Source: Chthoniobacteraceae bacterium (GTDB taxonomy: Bacteria; Verrucomicrobiota; Verrucomicrobiia; Chthoniobacterales; Chthoniobacteraceae). From it: a stretch of 63,323 nt of DNA. Positions 42,675-63,323 of this stretch are shown one piece after another (positions within the stretch are counted from its first letter, which is position 1; each line of letters starts with the position of its first letter). The notes below the pieces were generated by a model. The model searched no databases. It was not told the origin of the DNA and saw nothing but the letters and a program-made list of their open reading frames with translations. Both the position numbers and the translations under genes were made by a program. Location of the stretch: assembly GCA_947476045.1 (NCBI GenBank), contig CANJNZ010000019.1:1-63323 (forward strand). The letters run 5' to 3'.

Positions 42675-43697
42675 CTAACGGAGCATCCGCAACGCGTTGA
42701 GCTTGGCAAGCGCACCACCACTTTCGATGGCGTTTCGCGCCCTGGAAATGCCCGCCGTCATGTCGTCAGCGATGCCGCAGACGACGAGCGCGGCGGCTGT
42801 GTTCAATAGCACCATGTCCCGCTTTACCCCGCGTTCGCTGCCATCGAGGATGCCCATGAGAATCTTCGCATTTTCCACACGATCTCCGCCGCGCAGTTCT
42901 GCGGGGGCACAGCGGCTGAGGCCCAGTTCCTCGGGCGAGATGGTGAAATTGGACACGCCCCCAGCCTCGACAGCATGGACTTGCGTGGAGCCGGTGAGCG
43001 TTAATTCATCGGTGCCATCTCCATGAACGGCCCATGCGCGCTTACGACCGAGAGTGCGGAGAGCCTCGGCGTATTTGGGCAGCAGTTCGGCGTCGAAGAT
43101 GCCTGTGAGTTGAAAGTCCGGCTGTGCAGGATTCAGCAGCGGGCCAAGCATATTGAAAATGGTGGATAGCCCTTGCGCTGCAAGCACCTTGCGGACTGGC
43201 GCAATGACTTTGAGCAAAGGATGGAAGGCAGGCGCGAAGATGAATGCGACACCGTGTTGTTCCAACGATGCGCGCAATTCACCGGGTGTGACTTCGATTT
43301 TCACTCCCAGTTCCTCTAGCACATCGGCGGCACCGGTCTTGGAAGTCACTGAGCGATTGCCATGCTTCATCACACAGGCTCCTGCGGCTGACGCGACAAA
43401 CATGACTGCGGTTGAGACATTGAAGTATCCCAGTTTGTCGCCCCCGGTGCCGCAGACATCGAGGGTCGGGCCGGGGAGTCTGGCCCGATCCAATTCCGGG
43501 TGCACCGCACGGGTGAGCAGGGATTTTGCAAAGCTGGTGATCTCGATGGCTGTCTCGCCCTTGCTTCGCATCGCCTTGAGAAAAGACATTTTCTCGCCAT
43601 CGGAAACCTCATCCGAGAGGAGCAAGGTCACTGACTGTTCGCACTGCGCCGGGCTGAAATTGATGCCGTTTTCAAGAAGGTCGATGAACGTTTGCAT
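42675..43697 (-). CDS. trpD: Anthranilate phosphoribosyltransferase
   Basis: The 340-residue enzyme of tryptophan biosynthesis transfers phosphoribosyl from PRPP to anthranilate. Motifs are 'DVCGTGGDKLGYFNVST' (PRPP loop), 'KHGNRSVTSKTGAADVLEELG', 'FAPAFHPLLKVIAPVRK' and 'FNMLGPLLNP'; all are intact. No other trp gene is in the window. It lies 8 bases after the zinc-ribbon membrane-protein gene, so it is probably read from the SPFH operon. Confidence 0.95.
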   Translation of the reverse strand: MQTFIDLLENGINFSPAQCEQSVTLLLSDEVSDGEKMSFLKAMRSKGETAIEITSFAKSLLTRAVHPELDRARLPGPTLDVCGTGGDKLGYFNVSTAVMFVASAAGACVMKHGNRSVTSKTGAADVLEELGVKIEVTPGELRASLEQHGVAFIFAPAFHPLLKVIAPVRKVLAAQGLSTIFNMLGPLLNPAQPDFQLTGIFDAELLPKYAEALRTLGRKRAWAVHGDGTDELTLTGSTQVHAVEAGGVSNFTISPEELGLSRCAPAELRGGDRVENAKILMGILDGSERGVKRDMVLLNTAAALVVCGIADDMTAGISRARNAIESGGALAKLNALRMLR

Positions 43698-43705
43698 GGC
43701 GCTGG

Positions 43706-44875
43706 TTAGTGGGTGAAATTTAAATCAAGAATTCGCGAAGGTGTCTGGTCGGGTTGTGTGTCGGGCTTGCTGCGCAGGCTGCCTGCCAGCAAAAGCAGGG
43801 TCGCCACCACGCTCAGGATCGCAAGCACAAGCAGCACGATTTTGATCCAGCTCTTCGGGTAGCGTCCAGCGATGGCGCCGGTGTAGCCGTTCACGACGAC
43901 CTGATAGCTCTGCGAGCCGTAGGTGTATGCGAGCAGCCAGACCGGCACGAGCACGTGCTTGAATGTCTGCTGCGAAAAATCCGCATTCACTTCCAGATCA
44001 CGATGCGTGTCGCCGGGCACTTGCTGCGAGCAGAGCTGCTGCGTTTTGGTCTCCATCGTTTGGCGCGCGTGCTGCGCGGCGGCGATGAGGTCGATCTGAT
44101 ATTGCTCCACGGTCCAGCCGCTCAAAAATCCGGGGTCATAGGGCTTGAGGTCGGTCGTGGTGGGGAAGGGCTCGATTTTATTTAGCAGTTCAATCTCAAC
44201 ACCGCGCGTGGCGGGGACGTGTTCATCATCAAAAAAATGATCGAGATGGCCGCTCGATGGATACCATCGAATTTTTCTTTCACTACGAGTCTGCCGGTTG
44301 CCGTTGGAGTCAATGTAGGATTCATCCTCGTAGTAGTAATCGCCCGACATCGCGCTCCAGTCTGCGCTGACCTGCGAATCAAACGTCCAATACGGAATGT
44401 AGATGCCATGCACTGTGTCGGTGAGTGCGCGGGTGCCGAGTTTGTTTGGCGCAAACCACCGCGCTCCATACCACGCCCGGATGGCCTCGCGCACGTCTGT
44501 CTCTGCAAGCTTGAATTCCAGCAGCGACTCGGGGCGGATAGGGCGCATTTGCTCTTCGACGGGGATGATCGCGGCGGAGCCGCAAAAGTCGCATCGCTGG
44601 GCTGCGCGCGTCGGCTCGAAAACCGTGATCGCCTGGCAGCTCTGGCACTTCACGCTCGCGCGCGTCGTGTCCCAACCACGCTGGTCATCGCCGATGGCCC
44701 CCAGCGCCGCCACGAGGTCATGCTCGATTCCCGTAGTCGGCGAATCCGGTGGCTGCATCGGCGCGATGGTTCCGCAATAGCCGCAGACGAGGGATTGCTT
44801 CGCCGGGTCCCAAGTCGCCTCCGCACCGCAGCTCGGGCAGTTGAATTTCTGTTGGGCGAAAACTTCGTCGCTCAT
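43706..44875 (-). CDS. Double zinc-ribbon membrane protein (YdjG-like)
   Basis: The 389-residue protein has two zinc ribbons: Cys13/16/31/34 ('CPSCG' ... 'CGYCG') and Cys77/80/95/98 ('CQSCQ' ... 'CDFCG'). A central domain follows ('GIYIPYWTFDSQVSADWSAMSGDYYYEDESY' ... 'VPVWLLAYTYGSQSYQVVVNGYTGAIAGRYPKSW') and one C-terminal membrane helix (about 343-365). This layout resembles Bacillus YdjG and other zinc-ribbon proteins linked to SPFH/PspA membrane-stress modules. The stop of the DNA methyltransferase gene lies 3 bases upstream. It probably faces the cytoplasm and bridges the membrane to partner proteins (inference). Confidence 0.75.
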   Translation of the reverse strand: MSDEVFAQQKFNCPSCGAEATWDPAKQSLVCGYCGTIAPMQPPDSPTTGIEHDLVAALGAIGDDQRGWDTTRASVKCQSCQAITVFEPTRAAQRCDFCGSAAIIPVEEQMRPIRPESLLEFKLAETDVREAIRAWYGARWFAPNKLGTRALTDTVHGIYIPYWTFDSQVSADWSAMSGDYYYEDESYIDSNGNRQTRSERKIRWYPSSGHLDHFFDDEHVPATRGVEIELLNKIEPFPTTTDLKPYDPGFLSGWTVEQYQIDLIAAAQHARQTMETKTQQLCSQQVPGDTHRDLEVNADFSQQTFKHVLVPVWLLAYTYGSQSYQVVVNGYTGAIAGRYPKSWIKIVLLVLAILSVVATLLLLAGSLRSKPDTQPDQTPSRILDLNFTH

Positions 44876-44878
44876 GCG

Positions 44879-45742
44879 CTACAGCAGTTTTCGTTTGTCG
44901 TTCAGCGCGTCAATCACGCGATAGCCTGCCGTGGCGAGATGGCGTGCATCGAGTTCGAGTCCCACGCAGCGCCGGCCCGTGGTGGCGCAGGCGGCGGCGG
45001 TGGTGCCGCTGCCGAGGAAAGGATCGAGCACCAGCGCGCCCTCATTTGTGCTCGCGAGGATACAGCGTTCCACCAGCGAGAGCGGCTTTTGCGTCGGGTG
45101 CCTGCCATGTCGTTTCTCGCTTTTCGTAGGAGCTTTCATTTTCCAGACGCTCTTCATTTGCTTCCCGGCATTCTGCTCGCGCATGGATGCGTAGTTAAAT
45201 GTGTGCCTGCTCTTCGCATCGCGCGCCGCCCAAAGCACCGTCTCGGTCGAGTGCGTGAAAAAGCGGCACGACAGATTCGGCGGCGGATTCGGTTTCTCCC
45301 ACGTAATGTTGTTCAGCAGTTTGAAGCCGAGTTGCTGCATCGCATGGCCCACGCTGAAAATCACGTGCTGCGTGCCCGTCACCCAAATCGTCCCGTTCGG
45401 ACGCAGCACGCGCTGGCAGCGGCGCAGCCACTCGATGTTGAATTCGTGATTCGCATCGGCGCCCCGCGATTTGTCCCACTCACCTTTGTCCACCTTCGCG
45501 CGCTTTCCATTTTTGCACGTCGTGCCGCCATTGCTCAGGAAATACGGAGGGTCGGCGAATACCGCGTCGAACACTCCGCCGGGATACTGTTCCGCGATGG
45601 CATCGAGAAATGCGAGGCAGTCTGCTTCGTAGAGATAGATGCCCGTCGCGTCATCGCGAAAGAATGGCGGGGGATTGCCGGGTGCAAATGCAATCTCAGT
45701 GAGCGGAGCGGCTTTACGGCGTGGTTTCTTAGCTTTTGCCAT
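44879..45742 (-). CDS. Solitary DNA adenine N6-methyltransferase (beta class)
   Basis: The 287-residue methyltransferase has motif IV 'FADPPY' (DPPY, 64-67) near the N-terminus, a target-recognition region, and motif I 'DPFLGSGTTAAA' near the C-terminus: the beta order of type II m6A enzymes. 'HPTQKP' precedes motif I as usual. The N-terminus is Lys/Arg-rich ('MAKAKKPRRKAA'). No restriction endonuclease or specificity gene is adjacent. It is embedded 6 bases after a secreted-protein gene and 3 bases before the zinc-ribbon gene, so it is expressed with them. Confidence 0.85.
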   Translation of the reverse strand: MAKAKKPRRKAAPLTEIAFAPGNPPPFFRDDATGIYLYEADCLAFLDAIAEQYPGGVFDAVFADPPYFLSNGGTTCKNGKRAKVDKGEWDKSRGADANHEFNIEWLRRCQRVLRPNGTIWVTGTQHVIFSVGHAMQQLGFKLLNNITWEKPNPPPNLSCRFFTHSTETVLWAARDAKSRHTFNYASMREQNAGKQMKSVWKMKAPTKSEKRHGRHPTQKPLSLVERCILASTNEGALVLDPFLGSGTTAAACATTGRRCVGLELDARHLATAGYRVIDALNDKRKLL

Positions 45743-45748
45743 ACAAAA

Positions 45749-46555
45749 TTACGGCAGCGGCACAGCGGTGAGATTCAGTGGAATCTTCACGAGGGATTTT
45801 TCAGTTAGCAGGTAAATCTTCGCCACGGCATCGGCGGGAGGCTTTTCGCGGAAAGAGATCGTGTAGCTCTTGTTGCCAGCGCCGCCGGATGACATGCGCC
45901 CGCCGGTTTCCAGCACCTTTCCGTCGGCGGAGCAAAACTCCACCGCTGCGACCACGCCTTTTGGGTCGTTCAGTTTATAGCCGAGTTCGTCGTCGTCCAC
46001 TCCGCCGCCGCCGCCAAATCCGAAGATGCCGCCGCTTTTCGCTGCTCCACTTGTGGCTTTGGTGAGTAGTGTGATTTCAGCGCCGAGCGCTTTGAGAACG
46101 GGTGATTCGAGTGGCTTGCCGCCGTCTTTCGCTGGCGAAGCGGTAATGACACTTTTCGGATCGTTCTTCGGCACGAGCAACTCCACGATACCCGTGATGC
46201 TCTTCACGGTCTTCGCAGCGCGCATCGGGTTGTCGAGTTCCAGCTTCAGCTCGAAAGCATCCGCGTCCTTCTTTTCAAAACCGCCAAATGGTTTCCGCAG
46301 CGGCTCGAAGTCCTCGGCGAACGGGCGACCTTCCTTTTTCAGCAAAGCCTTTCCTGTGTCGTCCGTCGCGGCGTCCACTTTCACGCGCATCCCCTTCGCA
46401 TCAGCGAGTTCAGAGCCGCTGAGGGAGAGCGCGATTTCGAGACCGGCGAAAAATTTGCCGTTTGTGCGTTTGTCGCTGACTTCCCCGACGTTCACTTTCA
46501 CCTCCGCGTGGAGGAGTGATGCACTGGCGAGAAGAATGGTGAGTGTGCGTTTCAT
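45749..46555 (-). CDS. Secreted hypothetical protein in the SPFH operon
   Basis: The 268-residue protein has a signal peptide ('MKRTLTILLASASLLHA') and a beta-rich body with two similar halves: 'AGLEIALSLSGSELADAKGMRVKVDAATDDTGKALL' and a later region around 'VAAVEFCSADGKVLETGGRMSSGGAGNKSYTISF'. A glycine run ('GGIFGFGGGGGVDDDELG') joins them. No known family. It lies 6 bases after the SPFH gene and 6 before the methyltransferase gene. It is the only exported member of the unit. Confidence 0.65.
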   Translation of the reverse strand: MKRTLTILLASASLLHAEVKVNVGEVSDKRTNGKFFAGLEIALSLSGSELADAKGMRVKVDAATDDTGKALLKKEGRPFAEDFEPLRKPFGGFEKKDADAFELKLELDNPMRAAKTVKSITGIVELLVPKNDPKSVITASPAKDGGKPLESPVLKALGAEITLLTKATSGAAKSGGIFGFGGGGGVDDDELGYKLNDPKGVVAAVEFCSADGKVLETGGRMSSGGAGNKSYTISFREKPPADAVAKIYLLTEKSLVKIPLNLTAVPLP

Positions 46556-46561
46556 GGCGTG

Positions 46562-47617
46562 CTATTTCAAATAGGCTGCGAGCGCGTCGGCGGTGATGCG
46601 CCATTGCGTGCCGATCTTTTTGCCTTTGAGGTCGCCGGCTTCGAGCGTGGCGAGCACGTCGGCTTCGCTGACACCGAGTTGCTGGGCGACTTGTGCGGGC
46701 GTGAGCAAGGCGGGAGTTGCTGCGGCTTGCACGGGCGCGCCGCCTGCGGGTTGCGTGGTCTGGCCGGTGAGCATTCCCTGATTGATCATCTGGTTCGCCA
46801 TGCCGAAGCCCATCGCGATTTCCGCCGCTGCGCCGCCGGGGCCGCCGCCGCCATGTTCGAGGCCCTGCGCCATCTGGAACTTCACGTAGTCGTTCAAATT
46901 TCCGACCGCTGCCATGCTGCTGCGCTTGTCAATCGCCGCCTCGACTTCCGGCGGCACGCTCACGTTTTCGAGGATGAATGTCGCGAACTCGATTCCGTAT
47001 TTCGGCACGGTTGCCGCGTTGAGCAGCGGGAGAATGGCCGCACCCACTTCGCTGTAGCGCGATGCGAGATCGAGCACGGGGATGTTCGCTTTCGCGATGG
47101 CCTCGCTGAAAAGGCTCACGATACGCGAGCGCATCGTGTCCTGAAATTCATCGAGCCGGAAATTCTGATCGCTGCCCGCCACTTCTTTGAGGAAAACCTT
47201 TGAGTCCACGATGCGAAAATCGAACGTGCCGAATGCGCGCGCACGCACGATTCCGAAGTCCTTGTCGCGCATCATCACCGGGTTGCTCGTTCCCCATTTG
47301 ATGCCGGTGAAAAGGCGCGTGTTGAGATAGTAAACGTCGGCTTTGAACGGCGAGTTGAAGCCGTATTTCCAGCCCTGAAGCCGCGAGAGGACGGGGATGT
47401 TGTCCGTCGTCAGCGAGTGTTTGCCGGGGTTGAACGTGTCGCCGAACTGTCCGACGTAAATAAACTGCACCTGCTGCGACTCGCGCACGATGAGCTGCGC
47501 GCCGTTTTTGATTTCCTTGTCATCGTCCGGCCAGCGGAACGACAGCGTGTCGCGTGAATCGTCCGTCCATTCGATGATTTCGATGAACTGTCCCTTGATG
47601 AAATCCATGAGGCCCAT
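46562..47617 (-). CDS. SPFH-domain protein with C-terminal excisionase-type helix-turn-helix
   Basis: The 351-residue protein opens with the YdjI/virion-core-like SPFH fold ('MGLMDFIKGQFIEIIEWTDDSRDTLSFRWP', 'GAQLIVRESQQVQFIYVGQFGDTFNPGKHSL', 'VMMRDKDFGIVRARAFGTFDFRI'). A helical stretch follows (about 170-245), then a Gly-rich linker (about 258-268) and a C-terminal helix-turn-helix of the excisionase type ('LTPAQVAQQLGVSEADVLATLEAGDLKGKKIGTQWRITADALAAYL', about 305-350). In most relatives the C-terminus is a zinc ribbon. It is the first gene of the operon, with an A/C-rich leader upstream. Role: membrane-associated scaffold, possibly DNA-contacting (inference). Confidence 0.8.
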   Translation of the reverse strand: MGLMDFIKGQFIEIIEWTDDSRDTLSFRWPDDDKEIKNGAQLIVRESQQVQFIYVGQFGDTFNPGKHSLTTDNIPVLSRLQGWKYGFNSPFKADVYYLNTRLFTGIKWGTSNPVMMRDKDFGIVRARAFGTFDFRIVDSKVFLKEVAGSDQNFRLDEFQDTMRSRIVSLFSEAIAKANIPVLDLASRYSEVGAAILPLLNAATVPKYGIEFATFILENVSVPPEVEAAIDKRSSMAAVGNLNDYVKFQMAQGLEHGGGGPGGAAAEIAMGFGMANQMINQGMLTGQTTQPAGGAPVQAAATPALLTPAQVAQQLGVSEADVLATLEAGDLKGKKIGTQWRITADALAAYLK

Positions 47618-47704
47618 AGTTGTGTTCTTTCGTGTGTGTTGTTGTTGTGAGTGAGAGCGCGCAGGCTAGCGAGCAGCGCGCGGCGGGAAAGCGAATTTCA
47701 GCGG

Positions 47705-49096: not shown

Positions 49097-50605
49097 TTAT
49101 CGAGGAGGGTTCTTGGTGCCGTCGGGAAAGGTGATGTCGGTGTTCGGCAGGGCGGCGCGCAGTTCGCGCAGCGCGGCGGCGGGGATTATGGTCCAGCCGA
49201 GGAGGGTGAGCGATTGCAAGCTGGTGAGGCCCTTGAGGCCGTCCACGTTTTGCAGCGCGGTGCAGTTGTTGAGGACGAGCGATTGCAGGGCGGTGAGGCC
49301 CTTCAGGCCGTCCACGTTTTGGAGCGCGGGGCAGCCGAAGAGGAGGAGCGTTTGCAGGCCGGTGAGGCCCTTGAGTGCGTCCACGTTTTCGTCCTGACAT
49401 CCGTAAACATACAAATCCGTCGGGCGGAGCTGGTGAAGCATTTCGCGGTAGCGGCCAAGGTCGGGGACTTCTTTCATCCAAAGCACGCGCTTGTGCTCGC
49501 CCCATGTCTTCTTTTTGAGCGCATTGTGCCAGTCTTGCCGAATGAGGCTGATGGCGTCATCGCACGTCCACCCGAACCGCGCCTCCTTCGCTTGGCGGAC
49601 GGCGTTGTTGTAGGCGTTGAGCTTCCACACCTGCCAGCCGATGCCGCCGAGGAAGACGACGATGAGCACGCACCAAATCTTCTTCCCAAAGCTGCTCTCG
49701 CTTTTCGTGGTGTGCCCGTCTTTCACGCGGGCCTTTTGCTCCGGGATGCGGAGTTTGGCAAGGCGGGGATGGGCAGGGGCGGTGGATCGTGGCGACAGCC
49801 TTTGGACTGCGGCGGCGGGGGTGTTGGCAACGGCCCCCATCGCAGCCGGGGCGACGTCTTTCTCTGTCCGGGTGGCGTCCTTCTCTGTTGGAGAGCCTGT
49901 TTCCTCTGTTGGTAGGTCGTCATTCCGCCGTCCAATGACTTCATTCCGTCGTCCAGTGACTTCATTCCGTCGTCCAGTGACTTCATTCCGCCGTTCAATG
50001 ACTTCATTCCGTCGTCCAGTGACTTCATTCCGCCGTTCAATGACTTCATTCCGCCGTCCAATGACTTCATTCCGCCGTCCAATGACTTCATTCCGTCGTC
50101 CAATGACTTCATTCCGCCGTCCAATGACTTCATTCCGTCGTCCAATGACTTCATTCCATCGTCCGGTAACGTTACTCCGCCGTCCGGTAACGCTACTCCG
50201 CCGTCTGGGATGCATACCATTTCCCAGAGTAACGATACCGAGAGGCGCGGTATGCCTACCATTGACGCCGGTAGTCATACCGCCGCGTCCGGGATTTATC
50301 CCAAGGGATACAGGGGTCGTCCCGCGACTCCCGGGATAAATCCCATTGCTCGAAATGACGATACCACGGCTTCCGGGATGAATCCCATGGGTCGCGGTGG
50401 CAATACCATGAACGTCGGTATGGATACCGCGCGTTCCGGGATGAATCCCACGAGGCGGAATCACGATACCGCGCCGTCCGGTATGGCTACCATGGCGCGG
50501 AATAACCATCCCATGCCTCGCAATGACGATACCATGTGCGCCGGTATGGATACCATTGTCTGCGGGGGAAGCGCCATTTCTCTCAGAGAAGCTCCTCTGT
50601 AGCAC
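49097..50605 (-). CDS. Leucine-rich-repeat membrane protein behind a heptapeptide-repeat region
   Basis: The C-terminal half is clearly coding. A membrane helix ('IWCVLIVVFLGGIGWQVW') is followed by a cytosolic or periplasmic linker and three leucine-rich repeats of about 23 residues ('VDGLKGLTALQSLVLNNCTALQN'). The upstream 230 residues come from a 21-bp repeat array and read as heptapeptides ('GRRNEVI', 'GIHPGSR'). Whether the true start lies before the array (GTG 50605) or inside it (several in-frame ATG) is unclear; an ATG-led frame at about 50575 reads out of phase and stops at 50461. The LRR part probably mediates protein binding. Confidence 0.55.
   Translation of the reverse strand: MLQRSFSERNGASPADNGIHTGAHGIVIARHGMVIPRHGSHTGRRGIVIPPRGIHPGTRGIHTDVHGIATATHGIHPGSRGIVISSNGIYPGSRGTTPVSLGINPGRGGMTTGVNGRHTAPLGIVTLGNGMHPRRRSSVTGRRSNVTGRWNEVIGRRNEVIGRRNEVIGRRNEVIGRRNEVIGRRNEVIERRNEVTGRRNEVIERRNEVTGRRNEVTGRRNEVIGRRNDDLPTEETGSPTEKDATRTEKDVAPAAMGAVANTPAAAVQRLSPRSTAPAHPRLAKLRIPEQKARVKDGHTTKSESSFGKKIWCVLIVVFLGGIGWQVWKLNAYNNAVRQAKEARFGWTCDDAISLIRQDWHNALKKKTWGEHKRVLWMKEVPDLGRYREMLHQLRPTDLYVYGCQDENVDALKGLTGLQTLLLFGCPALQNVDGLKGLTALQSLVLNNCTALQNVDGLKGLTSLQSLTLLGWTIIPAAALRELRAALPNTDITFPDGTKNPPR
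49921..50571. repeat. 31-unit array of 21-bp repeats with embedded palindromes
   Basis: Units keep an exact 21-base period from 49921 to 50571. The first 12 (49921-50172) are nearly identical: each starts cattccgc or cattccgt and ends caatgactt or cagtgactt. The other 19 are diverged but in register. At many diverged unit junctions a short palindrome appears: GGGAT with ATCCC, or GGTAT with ATACC (for example gggatgaatccc and ggtatggatacc). Within the conserved part, four of the six reading frames are open. Confidence 0.85.
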
Positions 50606-53770: not shown

Positions 53771-56700
53771 ATGAAACCAATTTTTCTCCGGCGTCACGCA
53801 CGTGCCATTCGTATTTGTGCGGTTCCGTTTGCAGCTTTGTTTGCGGTGGGCGCATCGGCGGCGAACATTTCGTGGACGGGTGCGACGGATGCGGTGTGGA
53901 GCACGGGCGGAAATTGGGTAGGCGGAGTTGCGCCTGCACCGGCTGACACGGCGGTGTTTGATGCGGGTTCGCTGGCAAATTTGACGACATCGTTAGGGAC
54001 GAACTTTTCTGTGCTCGGTTTGAAAGTGACGTCACCAGCGGGAGCGGTGACGATTGCGGGCGGAAATACGCTGACGCTTGCGGGCGGTGGTATTGATATG
54101 AGTGCGGCGTCGCAGGATTTGACGGTGAGTGCGCTGGTGGCGCTGGCGGCGAATCAATCTTGGGATGTGGCTGCCGGACGGACGTTGACGGCGAGTGGCG
54201 CAGTCAGCGGCGCGGTTAATCTGACGAAAATCGGCGCCGGTAAGCTGGTGCTGTCGGGCACGAATACTTTCACGGGAGGAGTGATTGTATCGGCGGGCAC
54301 GTTGCGGGCGCAGGGGAATGCGAATGCGCTGGGAACGGGCGTGGCGACTTTGAGTATATCCGGCGGACGGCTGGAACTGGCGAATGACAACGCGCTTGGT
54401 TTTAACCGCAATACGACAATTTCCGGGAATGCGACGATTGTTTCGGATCGCGTCAATGCAGGGGCGGGCGTGACGCATACGTTGGGGACGTTATCTATCG
54501 GTGGAAATACGTTGAGCACTGCGATGGGTGCGAATGTGAACAGCGGGACGGCGGGCGTGACGTTCGGCGCGACGTCGCTGACGGGCGCGGCGGTTTTCAA
54601 TGTTGGCTTCGGGACGCAACTGACGCTGGGGGCGGTTGCGGACAATGGTAATACGGCGACGCTACGCGGTGGGGGAAATTTCACACAATCAGGAGCATGG
54701 GGGAATGGGGCGGGCGGGTTGACTTTGGAAACCGACTACACGGGTGTTGCGACGCTAAATCAGGCGAATACTTTCACTGGCACGGTCACGGTTAAAAACG
54801 GCGTTCTGGTGGCGAATACGAACGCGGGTGCACTGGGCCTTGGTCTGCTGGATTTGCGTGGGGGCGTTCTGGATTTCAACAATGCGTCCGATTTGGCATT
54901 TAACATAGCCACGATTCTGAACGGAAACGGTCTAATCGTTTCGGAGAAGAACGCCGCGGGCGCGGGCGGGAGCTACACACTCGGCGCGCTGAATGTGAAC
55001 GGCGCATACACGCTCACGATTCGTGCAGGCAATGTGAACAGCGGCACGGCGGGGCTCGTTTTCGGTGCGACGACGTTCAACGGCGATGCGACCGTTGACA
55101 CATGGAACCCCACGATCATCAACAGCAGTAACGCCGGTCCCGGCAGTGTGCAGGTGACTTTCGGCCCGGTGACGGGAAACGGATTTTCGCTGACGAAAGT
55201 CGGCTCGGGCACGCTGCTGAGCACACAGTCGAGCGGCACACCGTTTGGAAATGGCAACGTCGTCCTTCACGGCGGCAGACTTTCCATCGCGCCATCGAGT
55301 GCGGGTGCCAATGCGGTGAACGGCGTCAACGCGGCGGCGGGCAGCACTTTCACCTACCGTGCGGGCACGTTGCAGTTGACCAGCAACGGCACCAGCCTCG
55401 CCTATACCATCGGCAATGCAGGCGCGGCGCCCGATAGCGTGCTAGCGCGCGTGGCGAGCACGAGGGGGACATTGAGCATCGGCGTCACTTCGCTTGCGAA
55501 TCTGCAAACGAGCGAGCAATTCATCGTGAACGGGCAGACCACGGCATCGAATAAAAACGGCGCTGCGAATGGCGCAGGGATCTATGATGCATCGGTCGTG
55601 GCGCAGGACGGCACGGGCGGAAGTTTCGTCGTTGCGGACACAGCGGCAAATGGAGGTTTCAAGCAGGCAGTCTACACGACTGCAGTTGCGGCCAGCGCGA
55701 TCCCGGCGAACACGATTTCCGATGTCACCAGTTCGATTGCGATCAATGACACCAGCAATCCCTACGCGCTGCGCGTGGGCGCATTCACGCTCACCAACAG
55801 CGGCACGACGACGGTGAACGGAGGCGCGGCCAGCTCGACGAACAGCGGCCTCGGCGGTGTCATACTTAATCCGACGGCGACGGTTTCTTCGATCACCGGT
55901 GGCACGCTGGCTTTTGGCTCATCCGAGGGTGTCGTGTATGTCGGTTCCGGCGCGAGCAACGGCTCGATTGCAAGCATCATCACCGGCACTGGTGGGCTCA
56001 CGAAATTCGGTCCCGGCACACTGACGCTGACTAGTGCGAACAACAGCTACAGCGGCGGCACCACGATCAACGGCGGCACGCTTTGGATTACCAATGAGGC
56101 TCAGTTGGGCACGGCCGCCAGCATCAACATCAATGGCGGTGGCACGCTGCTTTTGGGAGACGCTGCCAACAATCCTTCGCTGGCCGCTGCACGAAACATC
56201 GTGCTTGGCCCTGGAATTCAGAACATCGTGAAATGGACCCGCAGATCGGCAACCATCAACGGCGTCATCAGTGGCAGCGGCGGATTGAATTTTGGAGATA
56301 ATACCGCGTGGGGCGGTGATGGCGGCGGCGGCGGGCGGTTCACCTTGAATGCCGCGAATACCTACACAGGAGACACAATCCTAACCTATGCCGGGATCAA
56401 AGATCCCGGGATTGTTGTGGGTAACACGCTCGCACTTCAGTTCACCACGGTGGATTACAATACCACCGACATTCCGAACGGTATCAACGCCGGAAGCATG
56501 ATCATATGGGGTGTCGCCAACCCCATTGTCGGCGGTTTCAAAGGCAATCGTGACTGGAATATGTCCTACCAGAGCAATCCCGCGACGATGAACATCGGGA
56601 ACAACAATCAGGACACGATTTACAGCGGTGTTCTGAGTTCAACGAACACTTCCACCAAGCTGGTCAAAATTGGAACCGGAACGCTGACTCTTAAAGGGGC

Positions 56701-59700
56701 CAATACCTACGCGGGAGGAACGGAAATCCAAAACGGCACGCTCGTGCTCTCCGGGGCAAACACTGGTGCAGGGAATACTTTGATTTCCGGCGGCACTCTG
56801 CGTCTGGCAAACAACCTCGCCCTGCAAAACAGCGCGTATGACACCGCCAGCACCGGCACTCTTTCCTTCGCCACGGGCATTGATACGCCGACGTTCGGCG
56901 GATTGATCGGCAGTGGAAATCTGACGCTGCCAGCGAATGTCACGGGGCTGACTCTCAATCCGCCGGCACTCAAAACGTATTCCGGCCTGTTGAACGGCGC
57001 GACGCCAAGCATGACCGTCACAAAAATTGGCGCTAACGTCCAAGTCTTCACCGGGGCGAATACCTATATCGGCAGCACCATACTCACCGGCGCGGGTGCC
57101 ATGCAGATTGGCGTTGATCCCGTGGGAACCGTCGGCTCCATCACGAGCAGCGCCCTCGGCGTGGGCACGCTCATCTTTAACGGCGGAACACTGGCCTCGA
57201 ATAGCACCACGGCCCGCACGATTTTGAACCCCGTCGCATTCACCGGCAACGCCACGCTCGGCGATGTCACGAACACCGGCAAACTGACATTCAGCGCCAA
57301 CGTGGATTTAGGAGGCGCGGTTCGCACCATCACCGTCAACAGCACCGCGCAGTTTGATGGAAATTTCGGCGGCAACGGCGGCGGAATCACGAAGGCGGGC
57401 ACTGGCCTTTTGATTTTGAACGGCGCTGCAAACAGCAACAGCGGAGCCACGACCATCAGCACTGGCGCAATCCAATTTACCGGCGCGGGCTCCATCTCAG
57501 GCACCGGGAGAAATGTCACTGTTACGTCGCCCGGCGCGGTGGTCTTCGGACCATCGTTCGACACCCATGCCGGGGCCGACATTGCGGCGGCGCTCTTGAA
57601 CCGCATCGTCGCAACTTCCACGGGCGCGATTGCAGCGGACAACTATGCCGGCACGAATTTCAACTTCAACAGCGCAGGACTTACCGCCGCTTCGCTCGGT
57701 GCTGTCGGCAACGTGACCTACACCGGCACGCTCACTCCAAACGGCACGGCCTATCGTATCGGCGGCGGCGGCGGCACGATTACGATGGCGAACACGAACA
57801 CGATCACCGGCGTTGGAAATACGCTGACTGTGAATGGTAGCGCCATCCTCGGAGCGGCGAATGATTTCAACGGCACAACAACGATCAACAGTGGTGCAGC
57901 GCTCACGCTCGGCACAGGCATCACCGGCCAGAACGGTTCCATCGGCAGTGCGAGTGTCGTGGATAATGGAACGCTCGTCTTCAACAACGCCGACACTCAA
58001 ATCTTCGGCGCGGTGATCAGCGGCACCGGCGGCCTGACAAAAAATGGCGTGGGCAATTTGATCCTCAATGCGCTGGAGACCTACGCAGGCACGACTACCC
58101 TCAATGCGGGCACACTTACGCTGAATGGCGGCAATAACACACTGGCGGCGAACAAAGCCATGGTCGTGAATGGCGGAACACTCGACCTCGGCTCCAACAG
58201 TCAATACGTCAGCGCGCTGAGCGGAACGGGCGGAGTGATTACCGGGAATGGCGGAACTCTCACCTCAAATACAACGTCTGCCAGCACCTACGCTGGTTCG
58301 CTCCAAGGCTCTCTTAATTTCGCCAGAGTTGGCGCAAACACCAACATTCTGACACTGACAGGTGACAGCACCACCACGGGAGCTTTCTCCGTGATTGGCG
58401 GCGATCAGCCGCAATCGCAGGGGCCGGTTTTCGGCGGTGTGACGCTCAAGGACGGCGGACGCCTCTCTGGCATCACTGCGCTGAAGATCAGCAACGGGAG
58501 TCTCTTCATTGATAACTCGGGAACAGCAAACGACAATACGCGCATCAACGATTCGGCTACAGTCACACTGGATGGTGGTAGGATCATTTATACCGGACGA
58601 GCTTCCACCGCTTCGACCGAAGCCTTCGGAGCGATCACGGCTAGCACCGGAATGAGCAGCATTTCGGCAACGTCGGGAGGTTCAGGCAGCGCGCAATTAA
58701 CACTGGCGAGTCTGACCCGAAACTCAGGCGCAATGCTCAGACTGGAAGGCACGAGCCTTGGACAGTCTGGAAACAGCAGCCGCATCATCGTTACAGGCGG
58801 GCTCAGCGGGAATCTTGCTCTCATCAACGGTGTCGTCCCGGGCGTTTTCGTCGGGTCGGGCGGCGGGCCTGTGGATTTGGCAGGCTACAATGCGAATGGC
58901 TTTGGTGCAATTGGCACGGCTGGCTTCCCCGCCTACGTAGCACTCGCTGGTGCTGGTCCGACTTCCAATGTTTCCGGCGGCGGCACTGTCACAGCCGGCG
59001 GTCAGACCATCAATGGCATGACCAACGGAAGCATTGCCTTCGTAAACAATGATGATCTGCTGACGCTGACGAGCGGGATGATTGTCCGGGGCTCGGAGGC
59101 TTCTAGCATCGGCACCACCGCCATTCGCGGACGAATGACCTCGGGCACAAGCGAGTTGTTCATCGTGAAAACCAACGAAGGCAGCGGCGGTGGTCAGGCC
59201 GCCAACCTCAATTGCGTCTTCACTGATAACGGTGCGACACTCGTCAAACTCATCCTGAACAATTTCAACCGGACAAATTTGCTGAATCAGACTTTCAATT
59301 TCACCTCCAACAACACGCACACCGGTGGCACCGTCGTATCCGGTGGAAATGAATTGTTTCTTCAGGCATCCACAGCCGGCTGGACGACGATCCCTGCTGC
59401 GAATGATCCGACTCAGGGTCTGATTATCAACAACAGCACCGTCACGATGCAAACCAACGCGCAGCAGATCGCCGCAACGAACGTTGTGACTCTGAACGGG
59501 AGTTCAAAGCTGAATTTGTTTGGTGCAAACACACTCGCCAGCCTTGTTTTCAACAGCAACGGCGGAATCAATGCAGGCGGTTCGGTTCCTACGGTCACAG
59601 GCGGCACAACATTGACTATTGTCGGAGCAATAACTTCGAATCCAACAGAACCCACAGTTACGCCAACGATCAGCGTTCCGACTCTTGACCTAAACGCACA

Positions 59701-62700
59701 GGTCGCGGCGAGCATCAGCGTGAGCGCTTTGCCACAAGGCAATGTCATCAACAGCAACGGGACGCTGACGGCGTTGAATGGGTTATTGATCAGCTCCGTC
59801 GTCCAGAACGGTGGGATCACAAAGTCCGGCACTGGTGTTTTGAACCTCACAGGTGCGAACACATTCACCGGGGATCTAGTGATTGAAAACGGCGTGGTGA
59901 ACATTTCCACCTTCAACGAAAAAACCGCGGCAGGGCCGTTGGGACAGAGTGTGAATACAATCCGCCTCGGAAAGAGCGGCGGGCAGACCGGGATGATCGA
60001 ATACACGGGCACCAGCGTGACGAGCACGAGGCCTTTTACGATGGCGACGGGCGGGACGGGCGGGTTTCAGGTGGATGTGGGGACGCCGACGACGACGCTG
60101 ACGCTACAGGGTTTGATTGATGGCGGCGGTGGTCTGGTGAAAGCTGGGCTTGGCACGCTGAAACTCAACGGAGCTGTGTCGAATACCTACGGCGGACTGA
60201 CCACGGTGTCTGCGGGTGAATTGAACTTAAGCAGGACGGCGGCGGCCAACCTCATCCCGGGCGACATTCTCGTGGCGAGCGGGGCGACGCTCAGCGAGTC
60301 CAGTAACCCCAACCAGATTGCGGACACCTCGGCGCTCACGCTCGCTGGCAGCTATCTTCTCAACAGCCAGAACGAGACAATCGGCTCGCTGACGATCAAT
60401 GGCGGGAGCGTGACGACGGGCAGCGGTGTTTTGACGCTGGGCAATGCGGGGAACCAACTCACCATGACCGGCGGCACCTTTCTGCTGGGAACTGCGGGCA
60501 CTGCCGGAAAGCTCAATCTCAACGGGAATGTGGTCGTCAACAGTTCCTCGACCATCGCTGCCATCAACACGCAGAGCAGCACGCCCAGCACGGTGGATTT
60601 GAACGGCGGAATCCGGACATTTGACGTAGCCGCGGGCACCGGTGCGGCGGCTGGATCAGAAATGACGATCGCTGCACCGCTCACAAGCCCAAGCCCCGTG
60701 GGCGGCGGCATCATCAAGGCAGGCTCAGGAGCTTTGCTGCTTTCCGGAGCGGGCACCTACAGCGGGCCGACGACTGTGAATGCAGGCACGCTCGCCTATG
60801 GTGCGAACGATGTGATTGGCGCTGGCACCGTGACCGTCAATGGAGCCACTGCCATTCTCGCGCTGGGAACGAACCACAACGACAGCGTTGGAACGGTGAC
60901 GCTCGATGGCGGTGGCAGCATCACCGGCAGCGGCACTTCCACGCTCACAAGCACCGGCAGTTTTGAAATGAAGAGCGGCTCGGTCAGCGCGGCACTCTCG
61001 GGCGGCGGCATCCCGCTCAACAAAACCACGAGCAGCACCGTCACGCTCACCGGCGCGAATACCTACAGCGGAGCGACCAATGTCAATGCAGGCACGCTCG
61101 CGTTGATGGGCAGTGGTTCGTTGGGAAACACGGCCATCACCGTCGCTGGCGGCGCTACTTTTGCAGTGAAGCCGGGCAGCACCATCTCCGCCGGCACCAC
61201 GGGTGCGGGCACGGCCGGCGCGTCGCTCACGCTCAATGCGGGCAGCGCGTTCACGATGGCGGACAACGGCATCGGGACATTCAATCTTCAGCAGAACGAT
61301 TCCTTCGCATCAGCCGGCCTGGTAGCCAGCGTCGCCAGCGGAACCGCACCGACGCTCACTTTTGATCTCGGCAACGGCACGATTGATTTGCTCAACGTGA
61401 CGAAAGCCGCGAACACCAGCCTCGCCGTGAAGGGGCAGGTCAATTTCACGACGTTGACCGGACTCAGCAGTCTTACACTCGGCAGCTATCCTTTTATCAA
61501 TGCACTAGGCGGCGGTCTCGGGGCATCAGCATTCACGCTCAGCAACCCGCTCATCGTGGTTGGCTCCAGCGCCTATAGTTTGTCGCTCGCCGACTCGTCG
61601 CCCACGCAGGAAGTTCTGACCATCACTGCCTATTCCGGGGGCGCTGCGATTCAAAAATTTGACCGCACAGCGCCTGCGAGCCTAATCAACGTGCGACCCG
61701 GTGCGACGCTGAGTATGTCCGGCACCCTGGCGAACATTGGCAACGGTAATCTCAACGTCAGCCTCGCCAGCACAGGTGCGCTGAGCGTGACGGGCTTGAA
61801 TTCGGACATCAATCCAGTGACGGGCACGCCCGCCAATATCACTGGCACAATCAACGCCGGTTCGACCGCCGGCTCCCTCGGCTGGCAGGTCACCAATACC
61901 GACAATGGCGCAGCCAACCCGACAGCAAGCATTAGCGGAACCGTCAACGTCTATGACATAGCTAACGCAACATACACCGGCGGCACGTTGGTGCTTGGTA
62001 ACGTTCACAAGTTGGCGACCAGCAGTCAGGCGGTGGCCTTCGGAAACCGGGCTGTGACCGATTCGAACTATCAGGATTTACTGAACGTCTCGGCGACGAC
62101 GAACAATGCAAAAGTAACGGCAACCGGCTTCACCGGCCTGGCCGCAAGCACCGGCGGCAGCACCACGGGCAATCTCACATTTTCCGCCAACACGAGCGCA
62201 GTTGGCAGTCTCGCTAGCACGGTGACGCTGGCTTTGACGAGCAACGCCAACGGACTTGCCGGGCTGAGCAACGGAACGGCGAACGTGGTCGCATCACCAT
62301 CGCCGATCACGATCACCGGACAAGTCTATTCGGGCTTGATGGTTTGGAACGGCGCGTCCGGCGGAAACTGGAACACCGACGCAAACTGGAACGACTCGCA
62401 GGATGCCATTATCCATGCGGCACCGGGACTGGACGCTGCGTTCACCAACGTGGACACCGCAACCTTCGGCAACACCGCAGGTAATGTGAGTATCAACATG
62501 GGCGGCGCGGCACCAAGCCTCAACGCGATCACTTTCAACAGCACCGGCAGCTACACGATCACCGGTGCGAGCGCGATCACGATGGCGGGCACGACGCCGA
62601 CTATCACGGTCACTGGCACACACACCATCAGCGCGCCAGTCACCTTGGCTAGCAGTCTAGGAATCACGACGGGCACAGCGGGCGACACACTGACCATCGG

Positions 62701-63323
62701 CGGCATCATCTCCGGCACAGGCTTCGGCCTGACAAAATCCGGGGCAGGGGCACTCGTGCTCAGCGGTGCAAACACCTACAGCGGAGCCACGACGCTGAAC
62801 GCGGGCACTTTGAGCCTGGGCAGCAGCACGGCACTTGGAAGCGGCACGCTCGTCATCACCGGCGGCACGCTCGACAGCGCGACGGCCAATTTGATCAACA
62901 CGGCAAACAACGCTCAGAACTGGAATGGCAACTTCGCCTTCGCCGGAACCAACAGTCTGAACCTCGGCAGCGGCATAGTGACGATGAACGCCACGCGCAC
63001 TGTAACAGTGAGCGACAAGACGCTGACCATAGGCGGCATCATCTCCGGCAACGGCCTCGGCCTGACGAAATCCGGCGCAGGCAAACTTGTGCTCGGCGGA
63101 ACGAACACCTTCACTGGTGCGACGACGCTGAGCGCGGGCACACTGAGCGTTGGAGCGGACGGCAATCTCGGAAGCGCCAACGCACTCGTCTTCAACGGCG
63201 GCACCTTGCAAGTCACTGGCACGGCATTGACCTCGTATGCGGCGGGAGTCATTGGCAGCCATGCGGTCACGTTGACGCCGAATGCGACCGTCGGCTTCGA
63301 CATCGCGAATGTGGGGAACACAT
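53771..63323 (+). CDS. Giant autotransporter-associated beta-strand repeat (PATR) protein, 3' end missing
   Basis: One frame stays in phase from ATG 53771 to the window end (at least 3,184 codons). I checked the phase at seven well-spaced repeat motifs. It begins with a signal peptide ('RICAVPFAALFAVGASAA') and a start module 'NISWTGATDAVWSTGGNWVGG'. It then carries about sixteen PATR repeats of the form 'LTKIGAGKLVLSGTNTFTGG...AGTL' near 54217, 54720, 55190, 56000, 56330, 56660, 57015, 57390, 57820, 58030, 59815, 60130, 60705, 61015, 62730 and 63060. A second start-like module ('VWNGASGGNWNTDANWND') lies at 62339. Such proteins form long beta-helices at or beyond the outer membrane. The C-terminal anchor is outside the window. 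Confidence 0.9.
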   Translation, partial: MKPIFLRRHARAIRICAVPFAALFAVGASAANISWTGATDAVWSTGGNWVGGVAPAPADTAVFDAGSLANLTTSLGTNFSVLGLKVTSPAGAVTIAGGNTLTLAGGGIDMSAASQDLTVSALVALAANQSWDVAAGRTLTASGAVSGAVNLTKIGAGKLVLSGTNTFTGGVIVSAGTLRAQGNANALGTGVATLSISGGRLELANDNALGFNRNTTISGNATIVSDRVNAGAGVTHTLGTLSIGGNTLSTAMGANVNSGTAGVTFGATSLTGAAVFNVGFGTQLTLGAVADNGNTATLRGGGNFTQSGAWGNGAGGLTLETDYTGVATLNQANTFTGTVTVKNGVLVANTNAGALGLGLLDLRGGVLDFNNASDLAFNIATILNGNGLIVSEKNAAGAGGSYTLGALNVNGAYTLTIRAGNVNSGTAGLVFGATTFNGDATVDTWNPTIINSSNAGPGSVQVTFGPVTGNGFSLTKVGSGTLLSTQSSGTPFGNGNVVLHGGRLSIAPSSAGANAVNGVNAAAGSTFTYRAGTLQLTSNGTSLAYTIGNAGAAPDSVLARVASTRGTLSIGVTSLANLQTSEQFIVNGQTTASNKNGAANGAGIYDASVVAQDGTGGSFVVADTAANGGFKQAVYTTAVAASAIPANTISDVTSSIAINDTSNPYALRVGAFTLTNSGTTTVNGGAASSTNSGLGGVILNPTATVSSITGGTLAFGSSEGVVYVGSGASNGSIASIITGTGGLTKFGPGTLTLTSANNSYSGGTTINGGTLWITNEAQLGTAASININGGGTLLLGDAANNPSLAAARNIVLGPGIQNIVKWTRRSATINGVISGSGGLNFGDNTAWGGDGGGGGRFTLNAANTYTGDTILTYAGIKDPGIVVGNTLALQFTTVDYNTTDIPNGINAGSMIIWGVANPIVGGFKGNRDWNMSYQSNPATMNIGNNNQDTIYSGVLSSTNTSTKLVKIGTGTLTLKGANTYAGGTEIQNGTLVLSGANTGAGNTLISGGTLRLANNLALQNSAYDTASTGTLSFATGIDTPTFGGLIGSGNLTLPANVTGLTLNPPALKTYSGLLNGATPSMTVTKIGANVQVFTGANTYIGSTILTGAGAMQIGVDPVGTVGSITSSALGVGTLIFNGGTLASNSTTARTILNPVAFTGNATLGDVTNTGKLTFSANVDLGGAVRTITVNSTAQFDGNFGGNGGGITKAGTGLLILNGAANSNSGATTISTGAIQFTGAGSISGTGRNVTVTSPGAVVFGPSFDTHAGADIAAALLNRIVATSTGAIAADNYAGTNFNFNSAGLTAASLGAVGNVTYTGTLTPNGTAYRIGGGGGTITMANTNTITGVGNTLTVNGSAILGAANDFNGTTTINSGAALTLGTGITGQNGSIGSASVVDNGTLVFNNADTQIFGAVISGTGGLTKNGVGNLILNALETYAGTTTLNAGTLTLNGGNNTLAANKAMVVNGGTLDLGSNSQYVSALSGTGGVITGNGGTLTSNTTSASTYAGSLQGSLNFARVGANTNILTLTGDSTTTGAFSVIGGDQPQSQGPVFGGVTLKDGGRLSGITALKISNGSLFIDNSGTANDNTRINDSATVTLDGGRIIYTGRASTASTEAFGAITASTGMSSISATSGGSGSAQLTLASLTRNSGAMLRLEGTSLGQSGNSSRIIVTGGLSGNLALINGVVPGVFVGSGGGPVDLAGYNANGFGAIGTAGFPAYVALAGAGPTSNVSGGGTVTAGGQTINGMTNGSIAFVNNDDLLTLTSGMIVRGSEASSIGTTAIRGRMTSGTSELFIVKTNEGSGGGQAANLNCVFTDNGATLVKLILNNFNRTNLLNQTFNFTSNNTHTGGTVVSGGNELFLQASTAGWTTIPAANDPTQGLIINNSTVTMQTNAQQIAATNVVTLNGSSKLNLFGANTLASLVFNSNGGINAGGSVPTVTGGTTLTIVGAITSNPTEPTVTPTISVPTLDLNAQVAASISVSALPQGNVINSNGTLTALNGLLISSVVQNGGITKSGTGVLNLTGANTFTGDLVIENGVVNISTFNEKTAAGPLGQSVNTIRLGKSGGQTGMIEYTGTSVTSTRPFTMATGGTGGFQVDVGTPTTTLTLQGLIDGGGGLVKAGLGTLKLNGAVSNTYGGLTTVSAGELNLSRTAAANLIPGDILVASGATLSESSNPNQIADTSALTLAGSYLLNSQNETIGSLTINGGSVTTGSGVLTLGNAGNQLTMTGGTFLLGTAGTAGKLNLNGNVVVNSSSTIAAINTQSSTPSTVDLNGGIRTFDVAAGTGAAAGSEMTIAAPLTSPSPVGGGIIKAGSGALLLSGAGTYSGPTTVNAGTLAYGANDVIGAGTVTVNGATAILALGTNHNDSVGTVTLDGGGSITGSGTSTLTSTGSFEMKSGSVSAALSGGGIPLNKTTSSTVTLTGANTYSGATNVNAGTLALMGSGSLGNTAITVAGGATFAVKPGSTISAGTTGAGTAGASLTLNAGSAFTMADNGIGTFNLQQNDSFASAGLVASVASGTAPTLTFDLGNGTIDLLNVTKAANTSLAVKGQVNFTTLTGLSSLTLGSYPFINALGGGLGASAFTLSNPLIVVGSSAYSLSLADSSPTQEVLTITAYSGGAAIQKFDRTAPASLINVRPGATLSMSGTLANIGNGNLNVSLASTGALSVTGLNSDINPVTGTPANITGTINAGSTAGSLGWQVTNTDNGAANPTASISGTVNVYDIANATYTGGTLVLGNVHKLATSSQAVAFGNRAVTDSNYQDLLNVSATTNNAKVTATGFTGLAASTGGSTTGNLTFSANTSAVGSLASTVTLALTSNANGLAGLSNGTANVVASPSPITITGQVYSGLMVWNGASGGNWNTDANWNDSQDAIIHAAPGLDAAFTNVDTATFGNTAGNVSINMGGAAPSLNAITFNSTGSYTITGASAITMAGTTPTITVTGTHTISAPVTLASSLGITTGTAGDTLTIGGIISGTGFGLTKSGAGALVLSGANTYSGATTLNAGTLSLGSSTALGSGTLVITGGTLDSATANLINTANNAQNWNGNFAFAGTNSLNLGSGIVTMNATRTVTVSDKTLTIGGIISGNGLGLTKSGAGKLVLGGTNTFTGATTLSAGTLSVGADGNLGSANALVFNGGTLQVTGTALTSYAAGVIGSHAVTLTPNATVGFDIANVGNT

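Follow-up and report, generated by a model that had tools for sequence, protein, structure and literature searches.

A likely two-gene SPFH/zinc-ribbon membrane module enclosing a restriction-related adenine methyltransferase in a Chthoniobacteraceae bacterium

In a 63,323-nucleotide stretch of DNA from a Chthoniobacteraceae bacterium (the window, meaning the whole stretch that was analysed and to which all coordinates refer), four genes follow one another closely. They code for an SPFH protein with a C-terminal helix-turn-helix (HTH) domain, a signal-peptide protein, an adenine DNA methyltransferase and a double zinc-ribbon membrane protein (ZnR). A first-pass annotation, made from the letters of the sequence, had grouped them as a four-part system that couples membrane state to DNA marking. 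All four open reading frames (ORFs) were found on the minus strand, and the gaps of 6, 6 and 3 base pairs (bp) between them were confirmed. We compared the locus with 147 genomes of the same order, among which the window's own genome is called G000. Our results make it likely that the locus is a two-gene SPFH/ZnR membrane-scaffold module with lineage-specific passengers between its genes, the methyltransferase among them being restriction-derived. The genes and the domain of main interest are as follows.

46562..47617, minus strand: SPFH (Band_7_1) protein with a C-terminal HTH_17-type domain, 351 amino acids (aa), the putative core scaffold gene
46565..46711, minus strand: HTH_17-type domain of the SPFH protein, net charge 0, with an acidic recognition-helix region, a probable adaptor (alignment and charge comparison)
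45749..46555, minus strand: signal-peptide protein, 268 aa, beta-rich, of no family, a lineage-specific passenger
44879..45742, minus strand: beta-class adenine DNA methyltransferase of DpnA/M2 type, 287 aa, nuclease-less here, a putative restriction-derived passenger
43706..44875, minus strand: double zinc-ribbon protein (ZnR, YdjG-like), 389 aa, the putative core membrane partner

The SPFH/ZnR pair

The SPFH protein matched PF13421 (Band_7_1) at 1.2e-81 in a profile search. Its partner is, as annotated at first pass, a zinc-ribbon membrane protein, with two CxxC...CxxC ribbons and one C-terminal membrane-type helix. Eight cysteines are invariant in the ZnR alignment; they make up four CxxC motifs and hence two ribbons. 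Similarity to zinc-ribbon profiles was below the cut-off. In a structure model (mean predicted local distance difference test score, pLDDT, 81), two small regions form the zinc ribbons, the middle is rich in beta structure, and the last helix spans residues 343-368; its hydrophobic sequence is of the membrane-span type. Fold searches with the central domain gave nothing convincing (best E 0.009 with Foldseek, best Z 3.6 with VIA-align).

That the two genes belong together was borne out by their distribution. The SPFH-HTH gene was present in 20 of the 147 genomes, the ZnR gene in 20, and both in 19 (Fisher 1e-21, phylogeny not controlled). The two genomes with a single partner, G039 and G066, carry it on fragments that end near the gene, so that the other partner was possibly missed. 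G014 and G053 were left out of the SPFH count: their SPFH protein is a different one, whose identity of 35-37% is confined to the SPFH part. The window's genome also contains another Band_7_1 SPFH gene (G000:C78; L023, L189), which is 30-32% identical to the first. In genome contigs, 491 SPFH relatives were found. Neighbours were counted at 80 SPFH loci from public genomes, 77 of them readable downstream; a ZnR gene lay within three genes 3' of SPFH at 49 of the 77 and was immediately next at 38, and many Prosthecobacter-type loci had SPFH without an adjoining ZnR gene. The pair also appeared in records labelled Verrucomicrobiota, Acidobacteria and Betaproteobacteria, many of which are metagenome-assembled genomes and some plainly mislabelled. 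At five loci with Betaproteobacteria-type labels (L095, L100, L144, L148, L149) a secreted protein of about 140 aa is encoded between SPFH and ZnR; it is assigned to DUF4019 in L144, with which the other four copies cluster, and L148 and L149 have two consecutive ZnR-like genes.

The plasmid matches to ZnR that were examined (Comamonas, Paracoccus, Vibrio and Enterococcus) lay directly after an SPFH gene in 4 of 4 cases. The pair on the Comamonas plasmid NZ_CP083452 shares the domain architecture and gene order of the window and its ZnR is 56% identical, but no genes intervene there. RefSeq names its members 'SPFH and helix-turn-helix domain-containing protein' and TFIIB-type zinc-ribbon protein; no paper on SPFH-HTH proteins turned up in literature searches. 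In Enterococcus, the ZnR protein is 22% identical and its gene is followed by a TPM-domain gene, a composition like that of ydjI-ydjG-ydjH.

This likeness to the PspA/YdjGHI module, which had been noted at first pass, was upheld. In Bacillus subtilis, YdjI recruits PspA, and its own membrane localisation requires YdjG/YdjH (PMC8581546). In YdjG, a pair of zinc ribbons at the N-terminus is combined with an unassigned domain and a transmembrane segment (PMC11237479), and DNA binding has been suggested for this protein (PMC9239133). Like pspA-ydjGHI (YdjI being the SPFH, YdjG the zinc-ribbon and YdjH the TPM protein), the window holds a Band_7 gene together with a double zinc-ribbon transmembrane gene. 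In contrast to the adjacent B. subtilis counterparts, the two are separated by two genes; the run has no TPM gene, and the SPFH protein ends in HTH_17 where YdjI ends in a zinc ribbon. The genome is also without PspA. The first-pass remark that no PspA gene is nearby proved correct for the whole of G000, since a PF04012 profile search, whose controls matched in 9 of 14, gave no match in this genome or in five genus mates. The PspA family was found in 20 of the 147 genomes, including 4 of the 20 with SPFH, which is no association (Fisher p 0.48). A PspA link through an Acidobacteria neighbour (c7, 225-230 aa) was discarded, as c7 is a zinc-ribbon protein. With a YdjI/YdjG-like pair and no PspA in the genome, the pair thus resembles YdjI/YdjG without PspA, and these findings support the view of the locus as a known type of scaffold module in a form that lacks PspA.

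The C-terminal domain of the SPFH protein is indeed an excisionase-type HTH (PF12728, 2.1e-8, 34.8 bits against a cut-off of 27; TIGR01764 'excise', 32.3 bits against 28.8), but the claim that it is of a DNA-binding type fared less well, since the domain is not basic as its DNA-binding relatives are. Mean net charge was -0.5 in 18 SPFH proteins, compared with +5.1 in 17 further HTH_17 domains from five genomes of the genus (some being partial segments and some mutual orthologues). By net charge, a sequence proxy for a basic DNA-contact surface, the SPFH HTH has no such surface. It contains an acidic segment, SEADVLATLEAGDL, at a position taken by basic or neutral residues in other HTH_17 domains. 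The same C-terminal slot is occupied by GYF_2 in the Paracoccus and Vibrio proteins and by a double zinc ribbon (DZR) in that of Enterococcus. GYF domains bind peptides. A near-zero charge, together with the GYF_2 or DZR domains that take its place elsewhere, makes a docking domain the simplest reading, and the HTH is probably a protein-docking adaptor rather than a reader of DNA.

The genes between the pair

The methyltransferase was confirmed as an adenine methyltransferase of the beta class (PF01555 N6_N4_Mtase, 2e-55); its DPPY motif lies upstream of the S-adenosylmethionine-binding motif, an order that defines this class. The enzyme (METHYLTRANSFERASE) was found in 7 of the 147 genomes. 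Linkage to the pair was seen in G000, G060 and G120, and a fourth time in L087; the gene lies on contigs apart from the pair in G005, G146 and G003, and G044 has it without SPFH. In G005 and G146 it adjoins an ORF that reads by eye as hisS. Among the 77 readable loci, a methyltransferase gene occurred within three genes 3' of SPFH at four, one of which (L155) is a distant match of 27% identity that lies outside the pair, so that three loci remain, or four when the window itself is counted. The ratio of nonsynonymous to synonymous substitution (dN/dS) between the window and G060 was 0.075, which indicates that the enzyme is under constraint by purifying selection.

Several findings point to a restriction origin. 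In G120 (L028:8078-8476), a 132-aa PD-(D/E)XK nuclease (PDDEXK_11, PF20472, 7.2e-18) is encoded 3 bp after the methyltransferase and is followed by ZnR. A search of the remaining 146 genomes of the order gave no homologue of this nuclease, and its gene is absent in three of the four linked carriers. The absence of a nearby restriction enzyme, noted at first pass, is therefore true of the window, while a relative carries a nuclease gene in that very place. Searches of G000 for PDDEXK_11 and DpnII nucleases were negative; the DpnI search had no responding control, and MutH-type nucleases were not searched for. Elsewhere in the phylum, homologues of the methyltransferase adjoin DpnII (L166, L170, L171, L175), DpnI-family nucleases (L165, L167, L077) or MutH (L169). 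That of L176 adjoins a PD-(D/E)XK protein that weakly resembles PDDEXK_11, L178-L180 look similar, and some homologues also stand beside a Dam-like D12 methylase. On the Lactococcus plasmid pSRQ700, the M2 enzyme of a Dam-M2-restriction endonuclease operon is 51% identical over 88%, and a gonococcal homologue has, by eye, DpnI-like and PD-(D/E)XK neighbours. The DpnA/M2 enzymes of DpnII-type systems are likewise of the beta class, with homologues beside DpnII, DpnI and MutH/Sau3AI-type nucleases; unlike these systems (M2 of pSRQ700), the window enzyme has no adjoining Dam-like methylase or nuclease.

In a tree, the window enzyme grouped with members linked to restriction-modification. The four linked enzymes formed one clade (95/84), in which that of the nuclease-bearing G120 is sister to the rest, and the SPFH and ZnR trees also split carriers from non-carriers within the genus. 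This pattern fits one insertion of methyltransferase and nuclease with subsequent loss of the nuclease, or a later gain of the nuclease in G120. The enzyme is thus best read, from sequence comparison, as restriction-derived, DpnA-like and now nuclease-less, and it probably entered the SPFH-ZnR gap once in this lineage. Among sequences in the PDB, its relatives were CcrM (best, 182 bits) and a DpnA-annotated enzyme. CcrM (GANTC) is likewise solitary, but membership of its family was rejected at 227 bits against an equivalog cut-off of 830; the match covers model positions 8-249 of 350, and the window enzyme has no counterpart to the last ~100 residues of the CcrM model. PADLOC gave no known defence system, only generic methyltransferase models and a 21-bit match to the HTH.

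Characterised DpnII, DpnI, MutH and Sau3AI enzymes act at GATC. Action at GATC has been described for DpnI and DpnII, as has the activity of DpnA on GATC, including single-stranded DNA (PMC3573125). The specificity of the nuclease partners makes GATC the likeliest target, and the methyltransferase is probably GATC-specific. If this holds, the DpnI-family partners cannot work exactly like DpnI, which cuts methylated GATC. GATC avoidance, looked at as a possible trace of the target, gave no consistent picture: it was 0.65 in G000, 0.71 in G060 and 0.52-0.57 in G005/G146, but 0.89 in the nuclease-bearing G120 and 0.82 in G083, which has no methyltransferase.

The signal-peptide protein had no Pfam or NCBIfam match and was found in 2 of the 147 genomes, the window's and G083 (49-55% identity, depending on method). 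In G083 it is encoded between SPFH and ZnR with the methyltransferase absent. Its structure model was poor (pLDDT 60, from a two-sequence alignment), and the best fold match (WxLIP; Z 7.2, 107 residues, 4.2 A) was set aside as within the chance range of beta-sandwiches.

Neighbouring genes and transcription

Two further features bear on the transcription of the run.

42675..43697, minus strand: trpD, anthranilate phosphoribosyltransferase (TIGR01245, 2.7e-103)
47618..47704, minus strand: 87-bp gap between hisD and SPFH, identical in sequence in the sister genome G060

trpD starts 8 bp past the ZnR gene in the same orientation, so that the tight run comprises five genes. hisD lies 87 bp upstream of SPFH, and between hisD and trpD this gap is the sole one roomy enough for a promoter. 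In L087, the methyltransferase gene, the ZnR gene and trpD overlap by 4 bp. trpD is taken to lie outside the module and to be probably co-transcribed with it; a promoter and terminator scan remained at chance level, with 0 promoters against 1.3 expected and 9 terminators against 9.4 expected. trpD also lies directly or closely 3' of ZnR in L087, L030, L037, L041, L080 and L101, a conserved gene order that holds in L080 even with SPFH on a separate contig, and in L021 and L022 it is preceded by an SPFH gene of a different family. Between the window and G060 (L024; 41443-48973), synonymous divergence rose steadily from hisD (0.05) through SPFH (0.19), the methyltransferase (0.37) and ZnR (0.64) to trpD (1.24), which suggests that the locus has undergone recombination between the two species.

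Other observations concern the genome at large. GTAC is nearly absent from G000, with 2 sites observed against 207 expected (143 kb, five contigs), and the window has only two, at 35192 and 38900. The sister G060 has 0 against 108 expected, other members of the genus have 0.28-0.45 of expectation, and L114, L141 and L161 have no GTAC and no methyltransferase at this locus. One guess at the cause is that a GTAC-specific restriction system is resident. A 21-bp tandem repeat of about 12.7 copies (90% match; 49920-50185, region 49920-50205) lies inside a long ORF that precedes a leucine-rich-repeat protein. At 53771-63322 on the plus strand, an ORF that runs off the end of the window codes for a very large surface-type protein, which exceeds 3,000 aa and contains ten autotransporter passenger repeats (PF12951).

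Readings of the locus

By analogy with YdjI/YdjG of B. subtilis, the soluble SPFH protein would oligomerise at the inner face of the membrane, where the single-span ZnR would tether it, and the scaffold may organise membrane proteins or membrane fluidity. The HTH_17-like domain would dock proteins as an adaptor, and PspA would not be needed. The methyltransferase would be a solitary, probably GATC-specific N6-adenine methylase that shares the scaffold's transcript but not its function. Several points weigh against this reading. The methyltransferase has been kept in the gap despite an identity of only 64-74% to the L087 and G120 enzymes, and it is under purifying selection; a useful link to the pair, at least a regulatory one, is possible. 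Six of the seven methyltransferase genomes also have SPFH, though five of them represent one genus. The analogy to YdjI/YdjG of B. subtilis is indirect and one of remote similarity (22% in Enterococcus), and even a neutral HTH could bind DNA once oligomerised.

A conserved four-gene system was rejected on the phyletic patterns of the genes. The proposed coupling of membrane state to DNA marking was not supported, as methyltransferase homologues elsewhere are restriction-modification parts; and conservation of the enzyme beside the pair, on which the first-pass annotation had staked its proposal, is largely lacking, being confined to one lineage. A membrane-coupled epigenetic switch, in which SPFH and ZnR sense stress and position or regulate the methyltransferase through the HTH so that adenine methylation follows envelope state, would accord with the tight spacing, at which translational coupling is likely, with the linkage retained in four genomes of one lineage and with purifying selection on the enzyme. 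Nearly all lineages lack a methyltransferase beside the pair, however, G005 and G146 have it on a separate contig, and the restriction origin of the enzyme and the non-basic HTH make such a switch highly improbable. Equally little credit is given to a PspA-independent SPFH/ZnR scaffold, Verrucomicrobiota/Acidobacteria-wide and with an HTH adaptor, whose recruited restriction-derived methyltransferase is under membrane-stress control in one lineage.

It is also very unlikely that the genes form a defence operon, that is, a restriction-modification or methylation-based anti-phage unit with the SPFH/ZnR scaffold as its membrane component. The methyltransferase and nuclease between SPFH and ZnR in G120 would suit this, as would the weak PADLOC match of the HTH to mad1, but that match spans just the shared HTH type, most genomes have the pair with no gene of this kind beside it, and the nuclease searches in the window's genome came back empty for the PDDEXK_11 and DpnII types. 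A membrane-tethered transcription regulator, acting through the zinc ribbons and the HTH with the methyltransferase as bystander, seems unlikely to us. Members of the HTH_17 and TF_Zn_Ribbon families often bind nucleic acids, and the DNA binding suggested for YdjG (PMC9239133) points the same way; against it stand the HTH charge of about zero and the other domains found in its slot, and zinc ribbons are in general equally common in protein contacts.

In summary, our results favour a two-gene SPFH/ZnR scaffold with passengers over a plausible but unsupported 'membrane-to-DNA-mark' system, and what is left is a widely conserved SPFH/ZnR pair that is independent of PspA. At the C-terminus of SPFH proteins, HTH_17, GYF_2 and zinc ribbons appear interchangeable, which suggests that the HTH fold is used here for protein docking. 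The methyltransferase would provide an example of restriction-modification genes that become established within a housekeeping operon, where the methylase is retained minus its nuclease.

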